Shown here: positions 38,091 through 60,834 of the stretch, in pieces
How the letters are laid out: each line of letters begins with the position of its first letter
How positions within the stretch are numbered: the first letter of the stretch is position 1
NCBI RefSeq assembly: GCF_000003815.2
Contig: NC_049988.1
Span: 15,389,016 to 15,453,015 of the forward strand
Direction of reading: 5' to 3'
Source of the DNA: Branchiostoma floridae
Taxonomy: Eukaryota; Chordata; Leptocardii; Amphioxiformes; Branchiostomatidae
Length of the DNA stretch: 64,000 nucleotides
The notes under the pieces: generated by a model
What the model saw: the letters and a program-made list of their open reading frames with translations, nothing else
Databases searched by the model: none
Told to the model about the DNA's origin: nothing
Translations under genes and position numbers: made by a program

Positions 38091-40053
38091 ATTATACAGG
38101 TGAGTAAGGTGTCTTTCCTTTGCCTATAGACCATGTAGGGCATTATACAGGTGAGTAAGATGTCTTTTCTTTGATTATGGTTCAGATGGGGAATTATACA
38201 GGTAAGTATGGTGTCTTTCCTTTGCCTATAGACCAGACAGGGCATTCAACAGGTAAGTACGGTGTCTTTCCTTTGACGACACACCAGGTAAGACACCGTA
38301 CAGGTAATTAAGGTGTGTTTCCTTTAACGACACACCAGTCAAGACACCGTACAGGTAATTAAGGTGTGTTTCTTTTAACAACACACCAGTCAAGACACCT
38401 TACAGGTAAATAAGGTGTGTATCCTTTGACGACACACCAGGTAAAACACCGTACAGGTGAGTAAGGTGAGTTTCATTTGACTATAGACCAGGTAAGACAT
38501 CTACAGGTGTGTAAGGTGTGTTTCCTTCGACGACACACCAGGTAAGACATAGTACAGGTGAGTAAGGTGTGTTTCCTTTGACTATGAAACTGGTAAGACA
38601 CTGTACAGGTGAGTAACATGTGTTTCTTTGACTACAGACTAGGTAAGACACCGCACAGGTGAGTAAGGTGAGTTTCATTTGACTATGGACCAGGTAAGAC
38701 ACCGTACAGGTGAGTAAGGTGCCTTTCCTTTGACTATAGACCATGTAAGCATTACACAGGTGAGTACGGTCCCTATGGTGTCTTTCCTTTGACTATGAAA
38801 CAGATAAGACACTGTACAGGTGAGTAACGTGTGTTTCTTTGACTACAGACTAGGTAAGACACCGTACAGGTGAGTAAGGTGCCTTTCCTTTGCCTATAGA
38901 CCATGTAGGCATTATACATGTGAGTAAGGTGTCTTTCATTTGCCTATAGACCAGATAAGGCATTATACAGGTGAGTGAGGTGTCTTTCCTTTGCCTATAG
39001 ACCAAATAGGGCATTATACAGGTGAGTAAGGTGCCTTTCCTTTGCCTATTGACCATGTAGGTCATTATACAGGTGAGTAAGGTGCCCTTTCTTTGCCTAT
39101 AGACCAGATAGGGCATTATACAGGTGAATAGGGTGCCTTTCCTTTGCCTATAGACCACATAGGGCATTATACAGTTAAGTAAGGTGTCTTTCTTTTGCCT
39201 ATACACCAGATAGGGCATTATACAGGTGAGTAAGGTGCCTTTCCTTTGCCTATAGACCATGTAGGGCATTATACAGGTGAGAAACATGTCTTTCCTTTGC
39301 CTATAGACCATTTAGGGCATTATACAGGTGAGTAAGGTGCCCTTCCTTTGATTATAGACCAAATAGGGCATTACACAGGTGAGTACGGTCCCTATGGTGT
39401 CTGTCCTTTGACTATAGACCATATAGGGCATTATACAGGCAAGTAAGATGTCTTTCCTTTGCCTATAGACCAGATTGGGCATTATACAGGTGAGTAAGGT
39501 GCCTTTCCTTTGCCTATAGACCATGTAGGGCATTATACAGGTGAGAAACATGTCTTTCCTTTGCCTATAGACCATTTAGGGCATTATACAGGTGAGTAAG
39601 GTGCCCTTCCTTTGATTATAGACCAAATAGGGCATTACACAGGTGAGTACGGTCCCTATGGTGTCTGTCCTTTGACTATAGACCATATAGGGCATTATAC
39701 AGGCAAGTAAGATGTCTTTCCTTTGCCTATAGACCAGATTGGGCATTATACAGGTGAGTAAGATGTCTCTTCTTTGATTATAGTCCAGATGGGGCATTAT
39801 ACAGGTAAGTATGGTGTCTTTCCTTTGCCTATAGACCAGATAGGGTATTATACAGGTGAATATGATCACTGTGGTGTCTTTCCTTTGCCTATAAGGCAGA
39901 TAGGGCATTATAAAGGTGAGTAAGGTGCCCTTCCTCTGCCTATAGACCAGGTAAGGCATTATTCAGGTGAGTAGGGTCACTAAGATATCTTCCTTTGCCT
40001 ATAAAACAGATTAGGCATCATACAGGTGAGTACAGTTACTATGGTGTCTTTCC
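38091..40053 (+). repeat. minisatellite, left arm (~51-bp unit)
   Basis: About 40 units, most near 51 bp. On the plus strand a unit reads TTTCCTTTGCCTATAG, then ACCAGATAGGGCATTATACAG, then GTGAGTAAGGTGTC. It therefore has a pyrimidine tract plus TAG, a 21-nt spacer and a CAG|GTGAGT block. Units at 38,250-38,740 are a second type with GACGACACACCAGGTAAGAC. The reverse strand is open over many units because 51 is a multiple of 3; I do not regard that as coding. Two 264-bp blocks (39,312 and 39,576 on) form a higher-order repeat. Confidence 0.95.
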
Positions 40054-40056
40054 AAA

Positions 40057-43000
40057 TGACCATACTCACCTGTATAATGCCTAATCTGGTCTATAGGCAA
40101 AGGAAAGACACTATGAGACTGTACTCACCTGTATAATTCCCTATCTGATCTATAGGCAAAGGAAGGGCACATCACTCACCTGTATGATGCCCTGTCTGCT
40201 TTATAGGCAAAGGAAAGACACCATACTTAACTGTTTAATGCCCTATCTGGTCCATAGGCAAAGGAAAGACACCATACTTACCTGTATAATGTCCCATCTG
40301 AACTATAATCAAAGAAAGGACACCTTACTCACCTGTATAATGCCCTATCTGGTCTATAAGCAAAGGGAAGACACCATACTCACCTGTATAATGCCCTATC
40401 TGATCTATAGGCAAAGGAAGGGCACCTTACTCACCTGTATGATGCCCTATCTGCTTCATACGCAAAGAAAAGACACCATACTTACCTGTTTAATGCCCAA
40501 TCTGAACTATAATCAAAGAAAAGACATCTTACTCACCTGTATAATTCCCTATGTGGTGTATAGGCAAAAGAAAGACACCTTACTTGACTGTATAATGCCT
40601 TATCTGGTCTATAGGCAAAGGAACGACACCGTACTCACCTGTATAATGCCCTATCTGGTCAATAGGCAAAGGAAAGGCACCTTACTCATCTGTATAATGC
40701 CCTACATGGTCTATAGGCAAAGGAAAGACACCTTACTTCACCGATAATGCCTTATCTGGTCTATAGGCAAAGGAAAGACACCGTACTCACCTGTATAATG
40801 CCCGATCCGGTCTATAGGCGAAGGAAAGGCACCCTATTCACCTGTATAATGCCCGATCCGGTCTATAGGCGAAGGAAAGGCACCCTATTCACCTGTATAA
40901 TGCCCTATCTGGTCTATAGGCAAAGGAAAGGCACCTTACTTGCCTGTATAATGTCCTATCTGGTTTATAGGCAAAGGAAAGACACCTTACTTGCCTGTAT
41001 AATGCCCTATCTGGTTTATAGGCAAAGGAAAGGCACCTTACTCACCTGTATAATGCCCTATCTGGTCTATAGGCAAAGCCAAAACACCTTGCTCACCTGT
41101 ATAATGCCTTATCTGGTGTATAGGCAAAGGAAAGACACCATACTAACCTTTTTAATGCCATACATGGTCTATAGGCAAAGCAAAGGCACCTTACTCACCT
41201 GTACGGTGTCTTACCTAATCTGTAGTCAACAAAACACACCTTACTCACCTGTATAGTGTCTTACCTGTTTCATAGTCAAAGGAAACACACCATACTCACC
41301 TGTACGGTGTCTTACCTGGTCTGTAGTCAAAGAAACACACCTTACTCACCTATACGGTGTCTGACCTGGTCTATTGTCAAATAAAACTCACCTTACTTAC
41401 CTATACGGTATCTTACCTGGTGTGTCGCCAAAGGAAACGCACCTTACTCACCTGTAGATGTCCTACCTGGTCTATTGTCAAATAAAACTCACCTTACTCA
41501 CCTATACGGTGTCTTACCTGGTGTGTCGCCAAAGGAAACGCATCTTACTCACCTGTAGATGTCCTACCTGGTCTACAGTCAAATGAAACTTACCTTACTC
41601 ACCTGTACGGTGTTTTACCTGGTGTGTCGTCAAAGGAAACACACCTTATTTACCTGTACGGTGTCTTGACTGATGTGTCTTTAAAGGATACACACCTAAT
41701 TTACCTGTACGGTGTCTTGACTGGTGTGTCGTTAAAGGAAACACACCTTAATTACCTGTACGGTGTCTTACCTGGTGTGTCGCCAAAGGAAACGCACCTT
41801 ACTCACCTGTAGATGTCCTAGCTGGTCTATAGTCAAATGAAACTTACCTTACTCACCTGTACGGTGTCTTACCTGGTCTGTAGTCAAAGAAACGCACCTT
41901 ACTTGCCTGTACGGTGTCTTACCTAGTCTGTTGTCAAAGAAACACACCTTACTCACCTGTACAGTGTCTTACCTGGTCTTAAGTCAAAGGAAACCTACCT
42001 TAACTACCAGTACGGTGTCTTACCTGGCCTGTAGACAATTGAAACACACCTTACACACCTGAACAGAGTCTCACCTGGCCCGTAGACGATGGAAACACAC
42101 CTTTGTTACCTTTACAGTGTCTCACCTGGCCTGTAGACTATGGAAACACATCTTGCACACCTGTAGAGAGTCTCACCTGGCCTGTAGACAATGGAAACAC
42201 ACCTTAGCTACCTCTACAGTGTGTTACCTGGCCTGTAGACAATGGAAACACACCTTACACACCTGTCGGGAGTCTCACCTGGCCTGTAGACAATGGAGAA
42301 ACACCTTAGCTACCTCTACGGTGTCTTACCTGGCCTGTAGACTATGGAAACACGCCTTAGTTACCTGTACAGAGTTTCACCTGGCCTGTAGACTATTGAA
42401 ACACACCTTACACACTTGTACGGGTTCACCTGGCCTGTAGACTATGGAAACACACCTTACACACCTGTACAGGGTATCACCTGGCCCGTAGACTATGGAA
42501 ACACACCTTAGCTACCACTACAGTGTGTTACCTGGCCTGTAGACAATGGAGAAACACCTTAGCTACCTCTACGGTGTCTTACCTGGCCTGTAGACTATGG
42601 AAACACACCTTAGTAACCTGTACAGAGTCTCACCTGGCCTGTAGACAATTGAAACACACCTTACACACTTGTACGGGTTCACCTGGCCTGTAGACTATGG
42701 AAACACACCTTACAATAAGTTACACACCTGTACAGGGTCTCACCTGGCCTGTAGACAATTGAAACACACCTTACACGCCTGTACAGAGTCTCACCTGGCC
42801 TGTAGACAATGGAAACACACCTTACACACCTGTACAGAGTCTCACCTGGCCTGTAGACAATGGAAACACTGTTCAAACACACTTTAGCTACCTCTACAGT
42901 GTCTTACCTGGCCTGTAGACGCTGGAAAAACCCTTTAATACACACATGTAACGTTACAGGGTCTGACCTGGGCTGTACTTGTAGACAATGGAAATGCACT

Positions 43001-43098
43001 TTACACACCTGTACATTGTCTCACTTGGCCTGCATGAAAAGATAACACACCTTACTGACATGTACAGTGTCTCACCTGGCCTGTAGTTAAATGAAAGA
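40057..43098 (-). repeat. minisatellite, right arm (inverted orientation)
   Basis: About 60 units of the same family in reverse orientation, starting 4 bp after the left arm ends. Moving outward, type A units (TATAGGCAAAGGAAAGACAC) run to about 41,200. Type B follows (GTGTCGTCAAAGGAAACACACC), then to 43,098 a third type with CCTGGCCTGTAGACAATGGA. Read on the minus strand, type C units still have TTTCCATTGTCTACAG and CAG|GTGAGAC, so the splice-like motifs survive the divergence. Confidence 0.95.
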
Positions 43099-46002: not shown

Positions 46003-49000
46003 ATGGAGGAAGACGGCCTTGTTGCCAACCAGCAGGACCAGAATGTAGCGGCGGAGAAAAATCAACATGTAGATGGGCCCGACACATCCCGGCCACAGAT
46101 AGACTCAGGCTGCTACAGCATAGACAACTCAAGCTGTCGTCCAGGACAGAATGGGGGGTCCATGGTTAAAGACAAGGTGGAGACCAGTGCAAGAGTCGAG
46201 CAGCAGGACAACATAGCTGTGAAAGACAGTGAAGCTGTTGTTACTGAGCAGCCTTTGCCACCAAGGCCATGTGAGGTTAGTGTGTATCATAACATGTTTG
46301 ATAACTTAATTGTGTTAGGGCCAAATGTATCTTTAGGTAGTGAATGTGCATTAGGAATACCAAAAATTTTAGTTATTAAACCCCAGGATCGATCCATTCA
46401 ACTATCTTGACCCGCTTTTTTACTTGATGTGTTAAATACATAGTTTTACATTTAAGTGTGTTTGCTTTGATGACATGACATAATTTCATGTTTGACATTC
46501 TTAGAATGTGATTTTCAGAAGTTTTGCCATATTTTCAATTTATATTAGTAGAGTTAACAGTCTGTCACAATGAGTTATATGATAAGCTATAGCATGCATG
46601 ATTCGAGTATTTTAATTCAGTATGGAGCACCCATTACATTATACAATACTTGTTAATGTATAAGTATAACTATGGACTCTCTGAAGATATGTGTTCATAT
46701 TGTAGATTGTACATTTGTACACATCTGACTGATGCTCTTCTTTCCACAGATTGAAGACAATACCCCTTCATTTCCTGTTACTGGGCCACCAATATCAGAC
46801 AATGGGGTAAGTTATGGTCTCAATTATGTTTAATCTGGTACTTTAAAAATATTTTTTTAGCAATGTCATGACGTTGGTGTATTTTTTAAGTTTTTAAAGC
46901 TTCTTAACTGTTAACTGTTACATTGACAGTACCCTCCTTTACGCTTCATTGCTTCTTAACTTGGTTAAGAGGATTGAATTTGAAGGACCATCATTTCTTT
47001 GATTGTTCATTATACCATTGATATCTCAGGTTAAAGAATTTCTTATTACCTTTGCCAAGAAGGGTATGTTTTTGGTTTCATTTGTGTGTGTGATACTATA
47101 ACTGGAGAAGTTGAAGATAGATTTTAATAGATTTTATTACTTGGTATGTGGGTGGGGTTGGGAAAACAAAGGTCAACTTTGATAATGGGCTTCCTAGCAG
47201 CTTTGTATGGTAATGTAGCAAAATTTCTAGCTTTGATGTCCTACACTATAGTTTTAATTCTAAAAATTAGTTTCCTTATGTTTTTGTATAGGACACTACA
47301 GCCAATGTTCATGAGAAGGCTAGTCCCACGCAGAACATCCAAAATGAAAAGGAAGAATTAGGGATGCCTCATCTAGACACTCAGCACAATGCTTCTGGTG
47401 AAACCTTAAGGGTTTCTGGGGACAAAACTGTTTCGCTGAACAAAACAACCGAACAACCAAACTTGGACAAGTTGCACAGTCGGACTGTTGCTGTTCAGGA
47501 AAAGATGAAGGAAATCGAGACAAAAATGTGTGAAACAAGGACTATTTTGGCTCATAGACGACAGGATGTAGACCCAGCAACTCTACAGAAAATAGTTCAT
47601 GCAACCTGCCAAGAGATATTGAAGGACAGGGAGAGTCTTTTGAGCTATGCAGAAATGACAGGAGGCTCCACATGCCCTGAACCTGCCCCTAACATCAGAA
47701 AGGGTTCCCCAGGCCTTAGAGACCCCAAGGCAGCACACACGAACCTGTCAGTATCCACAACTTCAAGTGCAAGTGACATTCCCAGCCCCATGGAAGACCA
47801 ACATGTCAGTACTGCTGGGGAGGAACAAGCAGAGGAAAATGCCAAGTGTCCCGGGAGTGTTCTGAAAGACGATAAGCAGCCAGAGATGTCAAAAGTTGAT
47901 GCATCAGACAGCATGTTCCTGGAGTCAAAAGATACTCAAGGTCATAGTGCAGAAAATGTGCGAACAAACCTGGCCAAGGCAGAGCACACAAACCTGGATT
48001 CCACAACCTCAAGTTCGAGCAACATTCTTTGCCCTGCAGAAGACCCACATCAAGTCAACACTGCTTTGGAGGAACACACAGAGAAGTGTCCAGAGAGTGT
48101 TCTGAAAGGTGATGAGAAACCAAAGATGTCAAAAGTTGATACACCTGAAAGCAGCTGCAGGGTCAAAGAGTCAAAGAACACTCAAGATCATAGCACATAC
48201 AAGAAGGAAGCAAGCGACGTTACCAAGCAGGAAAATGATCTGGGCCAGATGCAAGAGTGTTCTGACTCTCCAAGCCAGAGGGAAGAATGTGCGCCTGTGG
48301 ATCCATTACTGAAGGAACAGCTTGGGGGCTTGGCCTATAATTTGGGGCCATCTGACAGTCGCAAGAATGGGAACAAGCAACCAGGAGGTGAACGACAGAA
48401 AGAGATACTTACCGGGGATAAAGACAGAAACAAACAAGCAGGAGACAAGACACAGAATGCCAAGATGTCTCGAAAGAAGAAGAAGGCAGAGACCCAGCTA
48501 GCAGATAAAAAGGAGAATGGAGTGCTTCCCAGTCCGGCAAAGGAGGAAGGGAATTTGAAGAGTCCTGAAGCAGAAACCAACTGTCTGGAGACAAAGGAAC
48601 AGTCTGAAGAATCAGTCAAGAATGCAGTTGTGCCTAGCCCAGTAAAGAAAGATCAAGAAAAGACCAAGAATAAGGGTCAAGTGGCATCCAATAACCCAGG
48701 AAAGAATGTTCAGTCAGAGAAGGTCCTATCTAACACTCAGAAGAAGAGGGGACAATCAGGCAAGCCAAAGAGTGAGGTCTTTTCTAAGAATGCATCTGAA
48801 GACAAAGACAAGACTGGGATCCCGTCTAACAGTAACACCCAGGTGAAGATGAAGAAGAAGAGGAGAGGGTCAGAAGAGCCAGCCGAGTGTGGGGTCCTGT
48901 CTCAGAACTCACCAAAGGATGATGATCCAGAAGATAAAGAGGGGACCAATAGAGTCCCATGCATCACCCAGGAGAAGACAGAGCTGTCAGAAGAGCCAAA

Positions 49001-52000
49001 GAGTGACATCTTGTCTAAGGACCCACTGATCATGAAGAAGGATCCACCAGAAGACAAGGACAATATTTGCATCCCTTCCAACTCTGGGGTGGAGAGAGGA
49101 CAGACAGAAAAACTAGCAAATCATGAAGACTCAGATGATATCACCACTGTCAAGAAAGTTTGGAGGCAGAATATTTTGCCAGAAGAAGGGGATGCCGCAT
49201 CGAAAAAAGAAAATTTTAACAAGGCAGAGATACATGCTGAGAAGAAGGGTCAGATTGTGGGTGGCAGAAAACAAGAGAAAAATGCACGAAGCAAAAGGGG
49301 AGATGGCAAGTCATCAATAAATCTCACAATGGATAGTTTGATCAGTCCTCTGAATGATGTTGGCAAAAAGTATGACTTGATTGTTCAGACACCAGACAGT
49401 ACCATCTCTTCATATGACAGCAACCGGACACTGCTGGAAGACACAAAGACTTTGACAAGTAAGTACAAAATGTATTTTGTAGTAAATTTCATAGGGTAAA
49501 CTTAGTGTATGGGAAGAAAACTGTCTTTTGGACACACTTGTTTACATTTTGACAGTGTCACATAAAAATGTGCTACTCAACTAAGCTTATTAGCATGATT
49601 ATTTTTGTTGTTGTTGTTCAGTGGTCATCACCAAGAACTGGATGAACTTGAAGAAGTCATCGCTTTGGTTTGGCTTCCTGATGGCAAGGTCACAAAAAGA
49701 GGAACCTCCAGACATGACATCCTTCCTCATGGTACATTTTATCTTATTTTTTTTAACTTTAAGTTATTGTTTACCAACAGAATAGTGAGCCTATTTGAAT
49801 AAGGATCATTTACTTTATTGTATCTTTTTTTTAAAATTCTAGTATTTTAAAACTTGACCAGTACGAGTTGAGTCTACTTTGTCTAAAGCTTAGCGTATAA
49901 TATTTGGCAACTTTATTTGCATCTGATGTCCCAACAGTTTGTGCCAATTTAGTTCTAATTACTTATTTTCTTTAAAGACAATGTAATAGAAAAGCAATAT
50001 GATAGATTCTCCTACGATTTTGACATAGGTTAAAGGTATGTGTTCAACCTTTTCTTGTTCAATCTGTAGACTAATGTCACTGGAATATCCATGGACCAAG
50101 ATGCACTGATCTACAATGTGCAGCATCAGTATGAAGACTTGCTTGGAGATGCTGATGAAGACGACCAAGATGGCTACAACCCGCCACCAGAATGGCTGGT
50201 AAGACAGACACCTAATATTTGCTATTATTGCTGTCAGTCAAGCATACAATGTGTAATAAACAAATGCCTATTATAGTAAGTATATTATATTGTACATGCA
50301 GCTCGTATTCATTTTGGAGCAAATTTTCTAACTTCATCTCTCATGTATCACGCTCATCTCTAGCATGGCTATGGTGGCAGCACTAATTAGTTACATTATA
50401 AGGCACACTGTTTTTGATTTTGCAGTTCATCCATTTGTATTTGGTAGGTATTATCAGTATGGAAATGTGCAGTTTGTACAAATGTAAACAGCTGTCATAA
50501 GATATAGTCTTTCTTTCCAGCAAGGTGGGGGACTCTGTCTCCAGTCTTCCCAGCAAACCAGCTGGTCATTCCACAACACAAAGATAGTTGAATAGGGTAA
50601 AGCTATGTAATGTATGTAATACATGTTTGTGAGTTTTTATGCATGTTGCTTGTTAGTCGTTGCAAGCAAAAAGAAGCAAACCCGAGAATTTAAAGATGTA
50701 ACTAATATACAATTAGGAACCTCTCATATAGTTTTCTTCTTTATTCGAGGTACATGTATTTCTGAGCAGCCTGACATTTGTACAGATTACTAAGTGTCCA
50801 TGTTTGACCATATTTCCCTGCTGCCAAATTAATAGTTGTCTGTATGTTGCATCACTGTCATTGCAATGGTGTAATGTCTTGTAGCAGGATGTTTGATACT
50901 TGTTCTTGTGGTAAATGAAATTACCTTTCAAACCATATGGGCTGGCTTTTGCATGACACTTGATACTTGTTTAACAATTAGATATATATACAAGTATATG
51001 TATATATATACTATTACATGGTATTGTAGACATGCAATTACAGTATGTCTATAACCGTTACGGGCATTGCTAAATGAAAGGTGTTGATTATATAAGTGGT
51101 CTTTTGAATACCTTGAAACTTTAATAGGTTCATGGTAACAAATTTGTTCGAGGAATACTCAATACATAGTCACATACTTTATTGTACTTAGTCTAAGGGA
51201 TTTGGCACTTAAAATTTGTTCATTATTTGTACATTTTGATAGAAAATACAGCAAGATCATGTAGCTTACTGGGGAGATTATACAAGGTAACATCTTTGAA
51301 TAATTTAACATCATATAATATTTTTGCAGGCCCAGGAATATGACAATATTGCAGATGAAGACTTGTACTTGGGATCGGAGGACGCTATTGCCTCCCCTGA
51401 AACTGCCGTTACAGGTAAGACTGGTTTAAAGTTAAACAGTTTGGTCATGATCAGTTTTGCAACATTATCTGCTGCTATCTACTATTATATATAGAGTTTA
51501 CTAAGATTTATGGAAGTATGAAATTCAAATAAGTAATGACCATTTCACATCTTCAACATTATACAGGCTGAGAATTGTTGAATGTGGCTACATACTAGAA
51601 ACCCTTAGAGAACCAATGACATGCATGCAAGAAAAACTGTGAATACATCCATAAAGAATGATCTTTGAAATTACCACACAGACTCCATACATTGTATACC
51701 ATGTATTCCCTTTCTGGCCATCTCATCAGGTGGAGAATGCTTAGAATGGATTGATTGCTTCTAGCATAGCTGCATGTAACCTTATTATTAAGTGGTATGT
51801 TCTTTTTTCTTCTCAATGTCCAGGTCCACTGTTCTGTAGTGAAGCTCCAGACAATGGACAGATGGCAGTGGGAGGAGGTGACAGTATCTGTCTTCTCAAT
51901 AACCAAGACTTAAGACATGTGAGTATACCTGATCAACCTGACCAGCTTGATATTCCTATTATAAGCACCCTGGTTTTGAAACAATGGATATGGGTTACCC

Positions 52001-55000
52001 TATAAACATGAACTTTCGTTCAATCTTTATTACTTTGAAGTTCCAACATTTGTACTAATTCAGCACTTACAATCACTTCAACTTTAGATCGGTGATCACT
52101 CTTCACAGCACCTCCCTACAACGCAAGGTAACATTGTCATTTCACAGAGCATTATGTTTCATTTTCACCAGATTCTTGTATTCAAATAATTATGCAGGCA
52201 TGTCATAGCTAACTATCACCAGTGTGGACTAAAGACTGAAGGAAACAGCAGCAAATGAGGTGTTCTTTCATTTCAGAATTGCCAAATGTACCTGTACTTG
52301 CATATGAACTTTCCTTGGAGGAGGAAATACGACACTACAGACGTGTTGACAGAGGTAAGCCAATCTGGTAGTACAGTAACGGTAACCATTTTGTTCAATC
52401 TGTAAACTTGGGATATCTATTAAGACATACAGGAACAGTTCATGTATTTTTCTACTATAATAATGTATAATTTGATGTATTGTAATCTTACTAACACCTG
52501 ATTAACTACTGTTACATTACTCAAATTGTCCTTGATTTCAGGGATGACTGTGACTGTGCTGGGCCTTGGGGAACAGGTTGTGTCTTCAACAAGAATCCGT
52601 AACCCCACAACACTACAGGAGCACATTTTGCAGCACACGGCTGACAAGGCAAGGATATCCCACAATAGTTTAAGTCTTTAAAAAACAAGCTTTTAAATCT
52701 GTTGATTGAGAAGGATTGAGATTTTGTCGCGGCTAATGTGTGACAATTTTCCTTCAGGCCTTTGAAGTATATCCCATGGATGGCTTCACAGTGAAGTTGC
52801 CAGGAGGAAGATCGATTCCCTCAGACATGCCCCTTGACCCCTGGACAACTCGGAACGTCATCCTTCAGCTCCACCCAGCTAACACTGGGGACATCACATG
52901 GCTGTGGAGAGTAACCCACTCTGAAGTTAGTATTTTGATCTTCATCTATCTATGTACCTGTTATAACCTCTCTCTGCCATAATACACCGACTGTCTCTAT
53001 ATCTTTTATATAATTTGAAAATATTCTAATTTGAAACCACCATCCATTGACTTGATATCCTTAAATACCCTGTTTTTAAAAGCAACGGATATAGGTTACC
53101 CTGCGGATAAAGGTGATTAAGTGTGAAGTGATGCCAAAGCATTCCATTTCGTATTTCACAGGACCTTGGTAGAGGAAGGTACTGTGTAGAAGTGAGCATG
53201 CACAGGATTGTTGGCAGAGGAGAGGCAAGGGATACAGATGATGCAGAACATGGTGAGAATAACAAGTTCAAAGGTATTTAAAGGGGAGCACCAGGGATTA
53301 GCAGGAGTTTTTGTTTCATTAACAATATATCCCAATAAAAACGTTTTTGCAACTGTCGCTCTGGTCCACCGTACTTGTTGTTTTTGCCGGCCGTCTCAAG
53401 TTACCGCCTGCCCCCGGCTCCGGGGCTGCCATTTTGGCAGGGGAATCCCAACATCCGGGACCTTATTGACGTCACTGTGAATGGAATCAACACTGTCACT
53501 TTGGAGTGCGTTCGCAAACCACCGGTTTTCGCTTGATTTTCGCCCTGAAGTCGCCGTAGAGGCAGTGCCGTAAAGGCGTGTACTTGAATCTTCCTATGAT
53601 TTGCACAGTTAAAGGCCCCGGCTCGAGCGGGAGTGAGTGTTTATTTTTACGCCAGCTTCGCGGCCCGGAAGTGGGGAGGGGGAGTGCCGCGCCATTATGC
53701 CGTCGTGCGTAAGCTGTCACAACAACAACATCAACACGAAGAGCAAAGCGATAAGCTTCCATCGTTTCCCTTCGGAGGACAAAATCAGACTACAGAGGTG
53801 GCTAATCGCCGTCCGGTCGAATTTGAGGGAACCATGGACACTGGAAAAGATTCAAGATAGTATCGCCTCGAAAAACCCGGCATTCGTCTGCTCCGAGCAT
53901 TTTTCGGCAGACTCTTGTATCGACAACCCCAAGGCGAGATATGTTCCCTACTCTGTTCCTGCTAAAGTCCTTCTTCAAGACGCCTTCCCCACTCAGTTTG
54001 GGAGAAGCACGTCACGCGTGTCGTCAGAGAGACAGCGTGAAAAAAGGGATCGGAAAGAGGTATGTAATTACGCCGTGATTTTGCCGAATTTATCTGCATG
54101 TAGGATGTGTTTGTTTTGATCCTGAAAAGTAGTGATATAATTTACCTGCAAGGTTTTTGTAACATTTATATGATATATCGCGTCATCGAAGACAAACCAA
54201 TGTAACTTTCAACTTGACTTCCACATTTTTGGTAACTTTACATGTATTTTTAAGGATTTTTATTCTACTTTTCCTGGAATTGTTATGTTATCATAATATG
54301 ACATACAAATTACAGTGTAACATGATAATACCAAACATTTTGATGTTTTGGTTTTGTTGTGTTGTCTACATTTATCATGGATAATTTTTGTGTTTTATAC
54401 TTATGGATTTTCTAATGTATGGATGTAATCTAATGTAATATTTTTTTTTAAAATTTTTTATGCAAATGTTTTGTTATGTCCATAGCATAGCTATAATGTG
54501 TCTGTGTGTTTGGTGGATTGATTCTGGAAAAATTCAGTCCAGTTTTATTTTGAAGTTCTTTGGATGGATTCTTAAATTGATATTTGTACCTATTTTTTAT
54601 TAAATATTGTCATTTCTTTTATCATAAGTTATCTTTTATCATCCATCTTTCAGCTTCTTCAGAAGTTACTTCAGCAAAGCAATGATGCATGTGATCATCA
54701 GATGACTGAGCCCATGAGCAGTGTTGATGAAACAGGAATGACCGAGGCAAGCGATGCTGGTGCTGCATCACCATCTGCACCCCAAACAAAGTTCGATTCA
54801 GGCATCGTTACATCACAAGGATTGTTGGATTCAGGCGTGTCTACATCCTCGCTCTTATCCGACTCAGGCTCATCTACAGCACAATCCATGCTGGATTCAG
54901 GCGTGTCTACATCCTCGCTCTTATCCGACTCAGGCTCATCTACAGCACAAGCAGAAGTAGCACAAGGGTATGGACTGAAATTCCATACATACTGCAAGCC

Positions 55001-58000
55001 ACCAAGTGCAGAACCTGACAAGTTTGTCACTGCTTCTACACAAACAGAGCTGACCGGTGAGATGATAGAATCACTAATGTCCTCAACGTTATGTTCAACT
55101 CCGAAGGCGAAAGCCAATATGCGTGAACTGTCATTTGCGACATTGTCTCCAGTTGCCAGCCCGTCAGATAAGAATGACCCCACATTCAATCTATCAAGTT
55201 TTGAGACAGATATGGATGATACAGACACCGACTACGAGTATGACAGTGAAGAGGAGGAGGAAGGAAATGGCTCGCAATTCTACATAGTACACAGAAGCAA
55301 GCTTCTCGAAAGGTTCCAGACATGTGAGTGCGGCCAGCCCCTCGCTGTTTGGAACATGAAATCAACTGGCTCCATGCTTGCCATTGAATATGAATGTTCC
55401 AGCTGCTCCAACCGAGGAACTTGGCACTCCCAACCAAAGATTGGCAGTATGGCTGCAGGTAACCTTCTCATTCCTGCAGCCATACTGTTTACAGGTGGTA
55501 CCTATAAGAAGTTCGCTGACATATGTGACACTCTAAGGCTGCAGAAGTTCTCAGAGTCACACTACAACAATGTCCAAAGAACATACCTCCTTCCAGCGGT
55601 CAACGATTACTACCTCAACGAACAGCAACTCATCCTCAGACGTTTCCAAGCAACAGCAGAAGAGGAAGCACAGCAGGTCACATTGCTGGGAGATGGGAGG
55701 TGTGACTCCCCAGGTCACTGTGCGAAGTACTGTAGTTATACACTGATGGAGGAGAAGACACAGTTCATCCTGGACTTCCAGCTGGCACAGGTGACCGAAA
55801 CAGGAACCTCCCAGGCGATGGAAAGGCATGCCTTTGAAAAATCACTGGAGTTCGTCCGGGACAACGGTATTGATGTCGAGTGTATAGTCACTGACAGACA
55901 CCGGGGTATTGGAGCATCACTTAAGCAACGCAACAATAGGCACATCAATCACCAATATGATGTATTTCATATGGCCAAGTCTATTCAAAAGAAGCTGTCA
56001 AAATCTGCAAAGAGGAAGGCCAACAGAGCCCTCGGCCCTTGGATTAAATTCATAAAGAACCACCTTTGGTATAGCTCAAGTACCTGCGAAGGAGATGACG
56101 TGGTAAGATTAACTTCTATAAATGCGGTTAATAAGTAATAAATTCCCAGCCAAACATCAGAGGCCCTATTATTATTGCAGCCATCCTTGTTGAAAGTTAA
56201 CATACATGCCATCATATGGACAGTAGACGTAATATTGGTCAACAGAAAATACTGAACATTTTGAGTAACAGGGCTTTAAAGTGACATGTAATAATCATCT
56301 GGTGGATTTTGCCCTTCTAAACTAGTATTCTTTATTATGTCCATGTAGCTCCTACAAGAGAAGTGGCTCTCTCTGATTGACCACATTGCCAACCGCCACA
56401 CATTCAGAAAGAACCAGCTGTTCAAGAAGTGTGCTCACCATCGACTCACCCCTGATGAGAAGGAAAACATCACTTGGCTGAGACCAGGAAGTGCCCCACA
56501 CCGTGCCATGCGGGAGATAGTCTCCAATAAGACTTTTGTCAAGGACATGGCACATCTGACAGGGTTTAAGCACACAGGTAATTATATATTGTCCTCAGAA
56601 TGTCCCATTTTTTGTACTATAACTGAGGATATAAGTAGCCAAATTCATATGTGTTTAGATAAATGTGTTAGAGGATACATGAAGTGTGTGTATGTCTATT
56701 GTATTACTTTGGATTCCAATGTTGTAAAGGTATTCAAATGTACAGTATGAAAATAATGTTCCGTTTTACAGGGGTACTGGAGGTCTACCACAACATGCTG
56801 ACAAAGTACACCCCGAAGCGCCTACATTTCCCCTACCTGTCCATGCGGGCTCGTCTGCAGCTTTCTGTGCTGGATCACAATAACAACGTGTTCCGCGAGC
56901 AGGCAAAGACACTGGAAGGTGAGATCACAACTTTTGTACAATATATAGACATTACCAATAGAGAAGAATAAGCATACTGTGTTTGTTACAATTCATTGTT
57001 CATATATGTTAGTCAGGGTTTGTTTGAGAAAAAGTAACTTATCTATGATACACTGAATTACCATTTGCTGTCTCCATGTGCTGTAACAATTTGCTGTGAC
57101 AATCATGTATGCCATACTTTTCTTCTTATGTCACTGCCACAGGGGACCCGAGATGGTCTGTTGTGTATCCCAAAAGGACCAGTCTGTGGGTAGCCCGGAA
57201 ACTGTTTGAGGCGAAAACCTATGAGTACCGACAGCAGTTGATGGAGGAAGTTGTGCGCAGGAAGGAGAGCGGACAGTGGAAGTATGGACAACACGTCCTG
57301 CCTGATCCAGAGATGCCTGCAAACATTGCCCCCGTGGAACGTGGCAGCAAACAGGAGGCCGTAGATGCATACCGGACCAGATTCAGGCCGCGTTGAACTG
57401 TAGCTGCATAAGACAGCATTTTTGCTGTATGTAGTTCTTGATAATGATATACATGTACAAGCTTGTGTAGCTTTGTATGATATAGCTAAGGTCAAAACAT
57501 TTTTTTTGACAAGTCAGAACTATTATAGGTATGTTATAATATACCAACATGCTGCATTAATGAGAAAGACACTTGATGAAGAAACAATACTTTTTACAGA
57601 GGAATGCTGACATGTATCAGAGTGTGATAGTGTATACATGAACATTTTTTAGAAAAGCTCTAGGCAAACTATCTAGCCTGTCACATTAGATAATCTGACA
57701 AAGTGTAACTAGTGATACCTGGAAAATACAAATTTATGTAGGTTACACAATGCTTTTAACTTTCTACCTTCCATCTAACTTTTACTGACTTGGTGTAAAA
57801 TGTAAGTTGCATTTTACTATACAAACATTAGTATTTATAGAGGAATGTTGACAATATTGTATCAGATTGTGATAGTGTATACATGAACATGTTCCAGAAA
57901 AGCACTAGGCAAACTGTCACATTAAATAATCTGACAAAGTGTATCTAGTGTTACCCGGAAAATACAAATTTATGTAGGTTACACAGCTCTTTAACTTTTT

Positions 58001-60834
58001 ACCTTCCATCTAACTTTTACTGACTTGGTGAAAATGTAAGTTGCATTTTACTATACAAACATTAGTATTTATAGAGGAATGTTGACAATATTGTATCAGA
58101 TTGTGATAGTGTATACATGAACATGTTCCAGAAAAGCACTAGGCAAACTGTCACATTAAATAATCTGACAAAGTGTATCTAGTGTTACCCGGAAAATACA
58201 AATTTATGTAGGTTACACAGCTCTTTAACTAAAATAAAGAGTATTAGCAAGTTACATCCTATCTTTTCCTAATTCAAACATTAGAAAAAATGCTGATGGT
58301 GAAACAGGTTAACAAGAATCTAGTAATCTGGTGTATTAATAATAATAATTATCTAGTCCAGTTAAACATCAACTTGCATAATTATATTCGAAAATTGCAT
58401 CTTTACGGACTTGACAGCAAAGTGTATACAAACTATATACATATATAACGTTGTATATAATGTCAAGGAGCATGAAAGGGGTACTCAAAAAAAAATTTTA
58501 ACACAACTTCAAAACATATTGTGAGTGAGTGTTTGGTCCGCACATAACTTTAAAAACATTATGTAGAACTCTCAGAAACGTCCGCCTCATTCGTAGATGT
58601 AGTCGTAGATTTCGTCGTCTGCGTCAAGAAAACCTCGGTAGTTGCCGCCGGCCGGCTCGGGGTAGGCCTCCCTGATCGCCCAGACGGCACAAGACGGCAG
58701 GACACGCCGGATCTTTCTCCCCAGCCGCTGATGCAACCAGGCAGTGCACTGCCGGTACGCCTGGAGACGGTACGTGCGTGGTGGGTACTCATCCCTCAGC
58801 GGCTCCAGCTTGATATCAACCCGGAAGTTGAGTGCCGCGTCCAGGACGGCTTTGTTCAGAACGACGGCGCTGAAGTCGGGATGATCCCGCAGGCAGTGGA
58901 TGCCGTCCCACTGCCCTACGCCCTTTGTCTCCGCTTCTGTCAAATCATGACAACAGACGCACTCGCGAACTGTTGTCATCGGCCGGCAGTTGGTGCACCT
59001 GCACCACAAAAAATCATCGAGGCGCCACTCCTCCGTCTCTACGTCTTCCCCGTCCCAGTACGCCGTACTGTGTGCTCCCAAGCACTCCGGTTCGGAAGGT
59101 GGGGCGACAGGATCGACCGGCAGCGGACCAACGTCTCCCTCCCCACTTCCTCCTAACGCCGGCGCCGGCGCCTGGCGCCTGGGTTGAAAATTGTAGGCAA
59201 TAATGTTGGCCGGGTCAAACTCCTCTCTGTAAAGTCTCTCCATGATTTTGTCGAACGTGATGTTGTGTTGATTCCATTCACAGTGACGTCAATAAGGTCC
59301 CGGATGTTGGGATTCCCCTGCCAAAATGGCAGCCCCGGAGCCGGGGGCAGGCGGTAACTTGAGACGGCCGGCAAAAACAACAAGTACGGTGGACCAGAGC
59401 GACAGTTGCAAAAACGTTTTTATTGGGATATATTGTTAATGAAACAAAAACTCCTGCTAATCCCTGGTGCTCCCCTTTAATACTAATTTGATACTGCTGC
59501 ATAAAGACTGAAGAAAGGCCAGCTCTTAGTATAAAATTGTGGTTCGGGTGGCAGGGGAGGAGAAGCACCCGACATAAGTCAAGTAAGTCAAGTACAAAAA
59601 TGTAAGTCAATTCATCCAAAACGGAATGAAAATCTCAGAATTACGGAATTATATTGATCTTGAGGATCGGTATATAAAAACTGGTTTGAACTCACATTTA
59701 GGATTTTTTTCACTCTATACATTTTACAAATATTACATGCATGAGATAACATGTATGTCCGTAAGCTTAACTGGTAGCAGCCTCACAGTTCTGTCCAATC
59801 CTACGTAGGGCATATAGGTTGGGACTCTAGCCATCTTTCAGAAGAGACCTAAGATTGGGGTTTGAGGTGCCTCAAGCACATTAAAGGGGAGGATTATCAA
59901 CCCCCCTTTATACTGATATATACCCTGCTATTGAAACAGCTGGTGGCCATATGTGTCACTTGGAGGAACAAGCCAGCATTAACTTGTATTGGAACCCCAG
60001 AGTTCTAATTTTTTCCTACTTTTTTTTAAATCCAGGAGTAGACTGCGGTATCTGCCAGGACACAGAGCCTGGTAGTCTGCTGGTGGAAACAACTAAGTGC
60101 CGGCACAGGTTTCACTTTGATTGCCTGGTCAAGTGGCTACAGGTAAATGTACATGTACATTGTATATAGATTGTCTGAAGTGGTTATCAGTTATCATTGT
60201 GTATCAATTCAAAAGAGAGATTCTGGAGAATGTAGATAACAGGTCACCTTACAGATGCTTGATTCCTAGTATGGGTTGATAGTAGGGGTGGGTACCAGTA
60301 TGGTGTACCAGTACAAAACAGTTTTTTCTTGTTGGACCTAAAAAAGTATATCGGCAAACATTCACGTGTTTCGGGGATTACAGTTCCAAGAAAAGAACAA
60401 GAGCGAAGTAGAGGAGAGTTGATGCCAATGGATGTCAGATACTCTGCCAAACAGAATCCTTTGTAGTGAAATGAACCATTCTTTTGTGTATCGCCCATTT
60501 TTTTCATAAGTTTTCAGAGATAATTAGGTCCAGGATCAGGTCCAGACCTGGACCTGATTCCCTGTACCTGAACTTCTGTCCCTGTACCCACCCCTAGTTG
60601 ATAGTGATTAATGGTAATCTCTTAAAGGTAAAATCTCTGTTCATACAGCATTATGTACATCTGATTTGAAATGGTTTTTTTTTGTCTTGACAGGAGTAAT
60701 CTGGGCATGTATTTTATTAAATTCATGATGTTGTAACCTCGCATTTCCTAACTTTTAAATACTTTTTCTTCCTTATCAATTAGGAACAAAATGTTTGCCC
60801 CCTCTGTTGGCAAGAAGATCCCCTGAGGCCATAG
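46003..60834 (+). CDS. large disordered protein with C-terminal RING-H2 finger, probable E3 ubiquitin ligase
   Basis: Coding exons: 46003-46275, 46750-46806, 47292-49458, 49622-49731, 50070-50198, 51330-51414, 51824-51918, 52088-52127, 52277-52354, 52542-52648, 52758-52925, 53162-53252, 60036-60142, 60784-60834. They total 3,558 nt, giving 1,185 residues with every phase matching. The start is AACCATGG, a good Kozak context. Residues 1-830 are low-complexity, rich in Lys, Glu, Ser and Asp, with two long imperfect repeats. An acidic segment (LLGDADEDDQDGYNPPPEWL) follows. About 985-1130 are ordered (TVTVLGLGEQVV, FTVKLPGGRSIPSDMPLDPW, ITWLWRV). The end is a C3H2C3 RING: CGIC, CRHRFHFDC, CPLC. 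RING-H2 domains recruit E2 enzymes. The family is not recognised. The RING exons are cut off from the rest by a 6.2-kb Kolobok insertion in the intron. Confidence 0.88.
47056..47240. repeat. dispersed repeat copy
   Basis: GCCAAGAAGGGTATGTTTTTGG, TTGGTATGTGGGTGGGGTTGGG and AACAAAGGTCAACTTTG are diverged versions of the repeat at 9,000-9,250. It lies in the intron before the giant exon. Confidence 0.5.
47292..49458 (+). CDS. giant exon of the RING protein
   Basis: A 2,167-nt exon, phase 0 in and 1 out (donor ACAA|GTAAGT). It encodes a short predicted coiled coil (VQEKMKEIETKMCETRTILA) and then a highly charged disordered region. Two related stretches occur: LSVSTTSSASDIPSPMEDQH with its DDKQPEMSKVDASDS partner, and STTSSSSNILCPAEDPHQ with GDEKPKMSKVDTPES. 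Basic patches such as SRKKKKAET and KMKKKRRGSEE could be nuclear-localisation signals (inference). Confidence 0.88.
50521..50596 (+). other. candidate alternative exon with in-frame stop (RING gene)
   Basis: A CTTTCTTTCCAG acceptor and an AATAGG|GTAAAG donor enclose 76 nt. In phase 0 after exon 50070 it reads QGGGLCLQSSQQTSWSFHNT and stops 24 codons in. It could be a poison or terminal exon that yields a RING-less protein. Confidence 0.35.
51940..52020. mobile_element. half copy of foldback MITE family 1
   Basis: CAGCTTGATATTCCTATTAT, AACAATGGATATGGGTTACCC and TGAACTTTCGTT correspond to the right half of copies A-C. It begins about 20 bp after the donor of exon 51824. Confidence 0.55.
53025..53115. 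mobile_element. half copy of foldback MITE family 1
   Basis: TTTGAAACCACCATCCATTG, TTGATATCCTTAAATACCCTG and GCAACGGATATAGGTTACCC match the right half of copy C. It lies in the intron before exon 53162. Confidence 0.7.
53282..53493. repeat. Kolobok left terminal inverted repeat
   Basis: Contains TTGACGTCAC (a CRE palindrome), the small palindrome CTGCCATTTTGGCAG with a YY1-like CCATTTT core, and CCCCGGCTCCGGGG. The transposase start codon lies 204 bp inside it. It probably acts as promoter as well as transposase-binding end. Confidence 0.92.
53697..57396 (+). CDS. Kolobok transposase with N-terminal THAP zinc finger
   Basis: Exons 53697-54059, 54654-56102, 56349-56577, 56772-56918, 57143-57396 total 2,442 nt (813 residues), all phases matching, no internal stop. 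Residues 1-90 form a THAP domain: MPSCVSCHNNN start, HRFPSED, LQRWLIAVR, FVCSEHFSADSC and a final FP (FPTQFG), with C2CH ligands C-x2-C and C-x2-H. A Ser/Thr/Asp-rich linker has two identical 22-residue repeats (about 180-224). A zinc-binding-type CECGQPL...CSSCSNRGTW follows. The catalytic region has GDGRCDSPGHCAKY (Asp468, Asp472), TDRHRGIG (Asp535) and HINHQYDVFHMAKSI, matching RNase H-like Kolobok transposases. The third acidic residue cannot be placed by eye. It cuts and pastes the element at TTAA. Confidence 0.9.
54828..54959 (+). repeat. 66-nt direct repeat inside the transposase exon
   Basis: Two 66-nt units starting GATTCAGGCGTGTCTACATC at 54828 and 54894 encode DSGVSTSSLLSDSGSSTAQ twice in the disordered linker. 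They look identical except near the end of the second unit. Confidence 0.9.
57397..58586. other. intergenic spacer inside Kolobok, with long tandem repeat
   Basis: This separates the two convergent genes of the transposon. Units of ~241 and ~234 bp starting GAGGAATG at 57599, 57840 and 58074 make about 2.6 copies, ending near 58,225. An AATAAA at 58,233 could serve the transposase transcript. Nothing coding was seen. Confidence 0.75.
57599..58225. repeat. tandem repeat of 234-241 bp, ~2.6 copies
   Basis: Shared blocks are GTGATAGTGTATACATGAAC, GGAAAATACAAATTTATGTA and TAAGTTGCATTTTACTATAC. Copies two and three are nearly identical; the first is more diverged. Confidence 0.9.
58587..59243 (-). 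CDS. P2X7-type C-terminal (ballast) domain protein carried by Kolobok
   Basis: A single-exon frame of 218 residues. Residues 1-75 are Pro/Gly/Glu-rich. From about 80 it has FLWCRCTNCRPM, RECVCCHDL and HCLRDHPDF, then AVVLNKAVLDAALNF, RTYRLQAYRQCTAWLHQRLG, LPSCAVWAIREAYPEPAGG and NYRGF. The cysteine pattern and the order WCxC..C, CC, C, YRxCxxW, LPSCxxWxIRxxFP, YxGF match the zinc-coordinating ballast domain of the vertebrate P2X7 receptor. There are no P2X channel or membrane segments. The start codon lies 21 bp inside the right inverted repeat, so that repeat is the likely promoter. The gene is convergent with the transposase. Its role for the transposon is unknown; it could be regulatory, anti-silencing or a captured host gene. 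Confidence 0.88.
   Translation of the reverse strand: MERLYREEFDPANIIAYNFQPRRQAPAPALGGSGEGDVGPLPVDPVAPPSEPECLGAHSTAYWDGEDVETEEWRLDDFLWCRCTNCRPMTTVRECVCCHDLTEAETKGVGQWDGIHCLRDHPDFSAVVLNKAVLDAALNFRVDIKLEPLRDEYPPRTYRLQAYRQCTAWLHQRLGRKIRRVLPSCAVWAIREAYPEPAGGNYRGFLDADDEIYDYIYE
59265..59476. repeat. Kolobok right terminal inverted repeat
   Basis: Inverted copy of 53282-53493, including the TGACGTCA and GCCATTTTGGC palindromes. It lies directly upstream of the ballast-domain gene on the minus strand. Confidence 0.92.
60036..60142 (+). CDS. RING-H2 exon 1 of the RING protein
   Basis: Acceptor TTTTTTTAAATCCAG, phase 1 in and 0 out. It reads VDCGICQDTEPGSLLVETTK and CRHRFHFDCLVKWLQ, giving six of the eight zinc ligands (C, C, C, H, H, C). 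Confidence 0.92.
60283..60596. mobile_element. 314-bp hAT-type MITE with 8-bp target duplication
   Basis: The left end TAGGGGTGGGTACCAG and right end CCTGTACCCACCCCTA are inverted. GTTGATAG is duplicated on both sides (60275-60282 and 60597-60604). An 8-bp duplication is typical of hAT elements. It lies in the last intron of the RING gene. Confidence 0.88.
60784..60834 (+). CDS. last exon of the RING protein: end of RING-H2
   Basis: Acceptor TTATCAATTAG. It reads EQNVCPLCWQEDPLRP and stops. CPLC supplies the last two zinc ligands. Confidence 0.92.
   Translation, partial: EQNVCPLCWQEDPLRP

Follow-up and report, generated by a model that had tools for sequence, protein, structure and literature searches.

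The window (the whole stretch of 64,000 nt analysed here) contains an intact Kolobok transposon, at positions 53282-59476, in which a gene for a THAP-domain transposase faces a gene for a protein related to the cytoplasmic ballast domain of P2X7. The features of the second gene agree with those of KolX, which accompanies the transposase in Kol0-type Kolobok elements, the match to published KolX being by description only. In diverged families of this genome, the two genes co-occur, are convergent where paired and have diverged to matching degrees. Their arrangement inclines us slightly towards a two-gene transposon that would have a promoter in each end and use KolX as a co-expressed accessory of transposition.

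Structure of the element

The element is flanked on either side by TTAA (Table 1), a target site duplication typical of the Kolobok superfamily. Its termini (AG...CT) follow the 5'-RR ... YY-3' rule given for Kolobok elements (Kojima & Bao 2022, PMC9587614); among the related elements described below, a single end, the left one of C1, starts with AC against this rule. The two inverted repeats are identical at 212 of 212 bases. Used as a genome query, the repeat retrieved its own two ends and one 36-bp match only; by this search, the exact family is single-copy in the assembly, and the copies lacking the second gene that the first-pass annotation had proposed as a refutation did not appear, nor did any copy containing it. 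The element is an intact, autonomous Kolobok of the KolX-bearing kind, probably inserted recently.

The first-pass annotation had described a TTAA-flanked Kolobok-type element with near-identical 212-bp inverted ends, an open five-exon THAP transposase gene and a convergent single-exon gene with a P2X7-type cysteine pattern. The limits proved exact to the base, and both gene structures and the cysteine pattern stood up to analysis. Assignment to Kolobok is supported by the TTAA copies, the termini and the existence of related TTAA-bounded elements. Only the wording on the ends needs amending: they are inverted and 212 bp long, but identical rather than near-identical.

The five transposase exons have GT/AG borders and join into an open protein of 813 aa. 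Pfam searches detected the THAP domain in it (E=7.8e-13 and 1e-10 in two scans) and matched no transposase model. The motifs GDGRCD, TDRHRG and DVFH were picked by eye as candidate parts of the DDD/E core, in which Kolobok transposases have C/DxxH between the second D and the E; the catalytic E is a putative assignment. A 66-bp unit is also repeated in tandem within exon 2 without breaking the frame (1.9 copies at 100% match, 54826-54950).

Table 1. Features of the Kolobok element and its flanks (positions in the window)
Feature	Position	Strand	Basis
TTAA target site copy, left	53278..53281	.	
Terminal inverted repeat, left, 212 bp, first bases AGGGGAGCACC	53282..53493	+	
GCCATTTTG, left end, base 147 of the repeat	53428..53436	+	
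TGACGTCA, left end, base 186 of the repeat	53467..53474	.	
Transposase exon 1, THAP domain (PF05485)	53697..54059	+	splice model
Transposase exon 2, motifs GDGRCD, TDRHRG, DVFH (DxxH)	54654..56102	+	splice model
Transposase exon 3	56349..56577	+	splice model
Transposase exon 4	56772..56918	+	splice model
Transposase exon 5, including stop	57143..57396	+	splice model
Tandem repeat, 234-bp unit, 2.6 copies, separating the ends of both genes	57613..58230	.	
KolX-type gene, one exon, 218 aa, P2X7 ballast domain	58587..59243	-	PF20478 match
Terminal inverted repeat, right, identical to left	59265..59476	-	
TGACGTCA, right end, 41 bases upstream of the KolX ATG	59284..59291	.	
TTAA target site copy, right	59477..59480	.	

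About 0.6 kb to the right of the element lies a RING-finger exon (PF13639, E=1.8e-07, positions 60041-60164), so the element may sit within an intron of a host gene or adjoin one. Elsewhere in the window, a 51-bp unit forms two large arrays, at 38091-39977 and 40122-43086, that are oppositely oriented. This unit contains CAGGTGAGTAAG, presumably resembling a splice donor, and the head-to-head array thereby presents dozens of donor-like sites. A low-complexity, lysine- and serine-rich open frame of 711 aa (47364-49499) matched nothing in Pfam up to E=1.

The KolX-type protein and the P2X7 ballast domain

The 218-aa protein matches the Pfam family P2RX7_C (PF20478) with E=6.2e-16 (59.3 bits, cut-off 23.5), a score that rules out a chance match. 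The same profile search had been named in the first-pass annotation as a way in which its proposal might fail. Against solved P2X7 chains, the best match (E=6e-05) extends over the cytoplasmic tail. Seven zinc cysteines (WCxCxxC, CC, C, PSC) are present in order by eye, and zinc binding is predicted from them; in the HMMER alignment with P2RX7_C, the CC pairs are not superposed. The PF20478 match provides the defining trait of Kol0, a second gene KolX with the ballast fold.

KolX has been described as a protein encoded next to the transposase in Kol0-lineage Kolobok elements; it resembles human P2X7 residues 476-595 and has the ballast fold (Kojima & Bao 2022, PMC9587614). The same paper concluded that P2X7 originated when a P2X4-like gene was fused to KolX, and that nanor probably derives from KolX by domestication. 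Capture of the ballast domain was described by Rump et al. 2020 (PMC7016195), a paper in which terms for transposons and lancelets had no match. Literature searches combining KolX with Kolobok, or P2X7 with DNA transposon and ballast, found nothing beyond Kojima & Bao 2022; P2X7 and Kolobok are also co-mentioned in one review, once each. As far as similarity goes, the evidence is in keeping with the suggestion in the first-pass annotation that such transposons could be a mobile source for this fusion, an idea already published as a conclusion in 2022 (PMC9587614).

Five residues of rat P2X7 are named as contacting guanine nucleotide (R546, H547, R574, R578 and K583; PMC7016195), and fish P2X7 also lacks some of them (PMC7016195). 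Two of the five are found in the window protein at hand-counted positions. Among eight KolX proteins compared, again by hand-counted positions, R546 and R578 are present in all, H547 in two, and R574 and K583 in none; these residues are not needed for membership of P2RX7_C. Conversely, an LGxxxR stretch occurs in 8/8 KolX and in 0/2 P2X7 fragments. The eight KolX C-termini show 31-40% identity to the two P2X7 fragments, the C3 protein being nearest to both (40%); since the P2X7 side consists of two mammalian fragments and of identities only, this comparison settles no placement. On that thin basis, the zinc fold would be the ancestral trait, with nucleotide binding belonging for the most part to the receptor.

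KolX is regularly carried by related transposons

Genome searches covered 513 Mb in 431 contigs and returned at least 64 matches to the KolX protein, at least 16 to P2RX7_C and at least 33 to the transposase core, which merged into at least 56 KolX clusters and at least 25 transposase clusters. KolX lies within 10 kb of 13 of the 25 transposase clusters listed, and all 13 pairs are convergent; random placement gave a mean of 0.054 pairs, with a maximum of 2 in 2000 trials. Because C15/C16, C13/C6:26.0M, C2/C5 and C19/C202 resemble near-copies in the identity tables (C15 and C16 share 98.9% identity along their length), the paired loci amount to about nine lineages.

Ends were examined at 10 of the 13 paired loci (all except C2, C202 and C6:26.0M), and seven of these are TTAA-bounded. 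Long inverted repeats with TTAA outside are found in the window element (212 bp), C15 (343 bp) and C16 (343 bp). Shorter TTAA-anchored ends bound C1, C278, C19 and C13, with 13-14 of the first 16 bases alike, as against 7-10 for the next best pairs. No convincing TTAA-bounded pair was seen at C3, C5 and C6:3.96M in the stretches fetched. Regular carriage of the ballast gene by such transposons, anticipated in the first-pass annotation, is thus supported.

The other 12 of the 25 listed transposase clusters have no KolX match within 10 kb. Many are short or broken; one of them (C2:2785201), however, retains an 872-aa open frame, so certain elements may do without KolX. Among the matches listed, 43 KolX clusters have no transposase match nearby. 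The end AGGGGGATTCCACT, which bounds C278, is present at nine loci fetched for transposase-less KolX clusters, in eight of them directly after TTAA. These loci (L017, L020, L022-L026, L028 and L030) are dispersed KolX remnants with a C278-type TTAA-bounded end and no transposase match within 10 kb. In an alignment of eight of the nine, similarity starts at the AGGGGGATTCCACT end; they look like C278-family copies without detected transposase.

Two further searches concerned other carriers. KolX beside piggyBac, reported in a few families by Kojima & Bao 2022 (PMC9587614), was rejected here: the nearest of 25 listed PF13843 matches lies about 26 kb from a KolX cluster (C18), by eye over 56 clusters. 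Viral contigs searched for relatives gave three pattern matches, none of them confirmed.

Transposase and KolX have diverged together

The transposase and KolX identity tables of eight elements are correlated (Mantel r 0.71, a value reached in 5 of 5000 permutations) and show the same four sister pairs. The KolX input was about 50 C-terminal residues, and C3 and C6 were compared over about 165 transposase positions; C15 was left out as near-identical to C16, and C5 and others because their sequence was wanting. The selection comparison suggested by the first-pass annotation was run between the window element and C16. KolX gave pN/pS 0.34 (0.28-0.43) over 213 codons and the transposase 0.32 (0.27-0.39) over 392 codons of exons 1 and 2; as synonymous sites are saturated (pS 0.75 and 0.71), the values are raw ratios and should not be read as calibrated dN/dS. 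On this measure, constraint is similar in KolX and the transposase.

These data bear on whether the ballast gene is a recent host-gene capture or a nested insertion with no role in the element. The gene is single-exon in the window element, and host proteins, P2X7 and nanor among them, contain related domains (PMC7016195, PMC9587614), as a captured gene would lead one to expect. However, it occupies the same position and orientation at 13/13 paired loci, its divergence matches that of the transposase, it is constrained, and the KolX matches at C13 and C278 are interrupted as if by introns. We regard such a recent capture as very improbable, and the conserved position and order rule out nested insertion. 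The latter, along with copies of the family lacking the gene, had been put forward in the first-pass annotation as grounds for abandoning its proposal; related elements hold the gene in the same place and orientation, next to the 12 of 25 clusters without KolX already described.

A motif anchored at the element ends

No blastn match links the inverted repeats of the window family to those of C15/C16. The two sets nevertheless have GCCATTTTG, ACATCCGGG and TGACGTCA in common, in the same order, with the distances of ACATCCGGG and TGACGTCA from the terminus equal within one base; as many shared 8-mers were obtained in 5 of 500 shuffles. We take TGACGTCA to be a CRE-like palindrome and GCCATTTTG to be YY1-like; ETS is the third label applied to these motifs.

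Having been noticed in these two families, TGACGTCA was then sought in the others. Across seven elements, it recurs 164-187 bp from the terminus at 11 of 14 ends, which represent 7 of 10 distinct end sequences. The window element, C15, C16, C1 and C19 have it at both ends, and C278 at the KolX end. It is absent from both C13 ends and from the C278 transposase end. In C1, where the inverted repeat extends for only about 14 bp, the stretch that aligns best locally between the ends is this motif block (ATGACGTCAC..CCGGGAGAG, 19/21). As to background, the 57,798 window bases outside the element contain no TGACGTCA, and 97,650 bases from 30 other loci contain 11, eight of them at one Kolobok end family and the remaining three at L006 (KolX match), L040 and L054 (transposase matches). 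On the transposase side of C278 (L083), whose end is without TGACGTCA, a repeat spaced at about 205 bp lies upstream of the transposase with a GCCATTTTT motif in each unit.

Is this motif part of a promoter? The ATGs lie 416 (transposase) and 234 (KolX) bases from the ends in the window element, and 380 and 364 in C16. Since TGACGTCA keeps its distance from the terminus better than its distance from the ATG, it could instead be a transposase-binding site, with the genes using other promoters. This alternative is a possible one that we hold to be somewhat doubtful. In two families TGACGTCA is accompanied by the other promoter-like motifs, GCCATTTTG and ACATCCGGG, and in the window it lies directly upstream of KolX; promoter and binding functions can, moreover, coexist. 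CpG observed/expected ratios are 0.73-1.32 in the first 400 bp of the ends, as compared to 0.50 in the whole window, but they reach 0.96 or more at bases 800-1200 in 6 of 14 ends, which makes CpG richness a weak argument. The end-anchored TGACGTCA does not figure in the account of KolX elements in Kojima & Bao 2022 (PMC9587614, in the parts consulted), and represents a modest addition to a known system. It offers a concrete test case for a motif that may be promoter, transposase-binding site or both.

A working model

A promoter in each end fits the location of the ATGs just inside the ends and the MuDR precedent (PMC3440606). The left end would drive the transposase and the right end KolX, much as the MuDR ends drive mudrA and mudrB, so that two proteins would be made in step from promoters in the two ends. 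KolX would be a zinc-folded accessory acting with the transposase on element DNA or on the transposition complex, and the guanine-nucleotide site of P2X7 would then belong largely to the later history of the receptor. A more ambitious version, which we put forward tentatively and consider rather less than an even bet, supposes that KolX-bearing Kolobok elements conserve a two-promoter plan around TGACGTCA at about 165-190 bp from the ends, kept even in C1; KolX would be an obligate partner made in step, and P2X7 would have inherited a transposition-cofactor fold and acquired nucleotide binding later. Both versions are somewhat weakened by the CpG control and by the transposase clusters that lack KolX.

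Long co-inheritance and constraint would also result if KolX served to counter host transposon control (chromatin or RNA-based silencing) and took no part in the transposition reaction. We find this unlikely, as no motif or relative in the searches made points that way. Alternatively, KolX could be a regulator that limits the transposase and keeps copy number low. The window family is single-copy in the assembly, and equal promoters would presumably hold the two products in proportion; yet a self-limiting gene should be lost easily, whereas KolX is kept in diverged families, and C278-family copies with KolX remnants and no detected transposase are frequent. Such a limiting role seems to us quite improbable, and we retain the co-expressed accessory as the preferred reading.

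Comparison with known systems

The window element resembles the Kol0 lineage (Kolobok-1_XT type; PMC9587614) in combining a transposase with a KolX like the P2X7 ballast region, and in its TTAA target and 5'-RR ends; it was assigned by KolX, not by a transposase tree. KolobokP, known from three Branchiostoma species (PMC9587614), is a Kolobok element too. It differs in having long terminal direct repeats and a His-Me nuclease (PMC9587614), whereas the window element has inverted ends and KolX; a repeat search of the region recovered the inverted ends, with long terminal direct repeats absent, and identity with KolobokP was rejected.

In its layout, the element recalls MuDR of maize (Mutator), whose transposase and second gene are convergent and whose inverted ends of about 215 bp hold promoters (PMC3440606). 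MuDR belongs to another superfamily, no kinship between KolX and MURB is claimed, and the promoters of the window element are putative. With the cytoplasmic ballast domain of P2X7, the KolX-type protein shares zinc cysteine motifs in the same order and the P2RX7_C profile; it is without the channel part and retains only two of the five guanine-nucleotide residues. In conclusion, the window element is a well-preserved, identical-ended new example of the kind of transposon proposed as donor of the vertebrate P2X7 tail, and therefore convenient material for studying the role that the ballast fold had prior to its fusion to a receptor.
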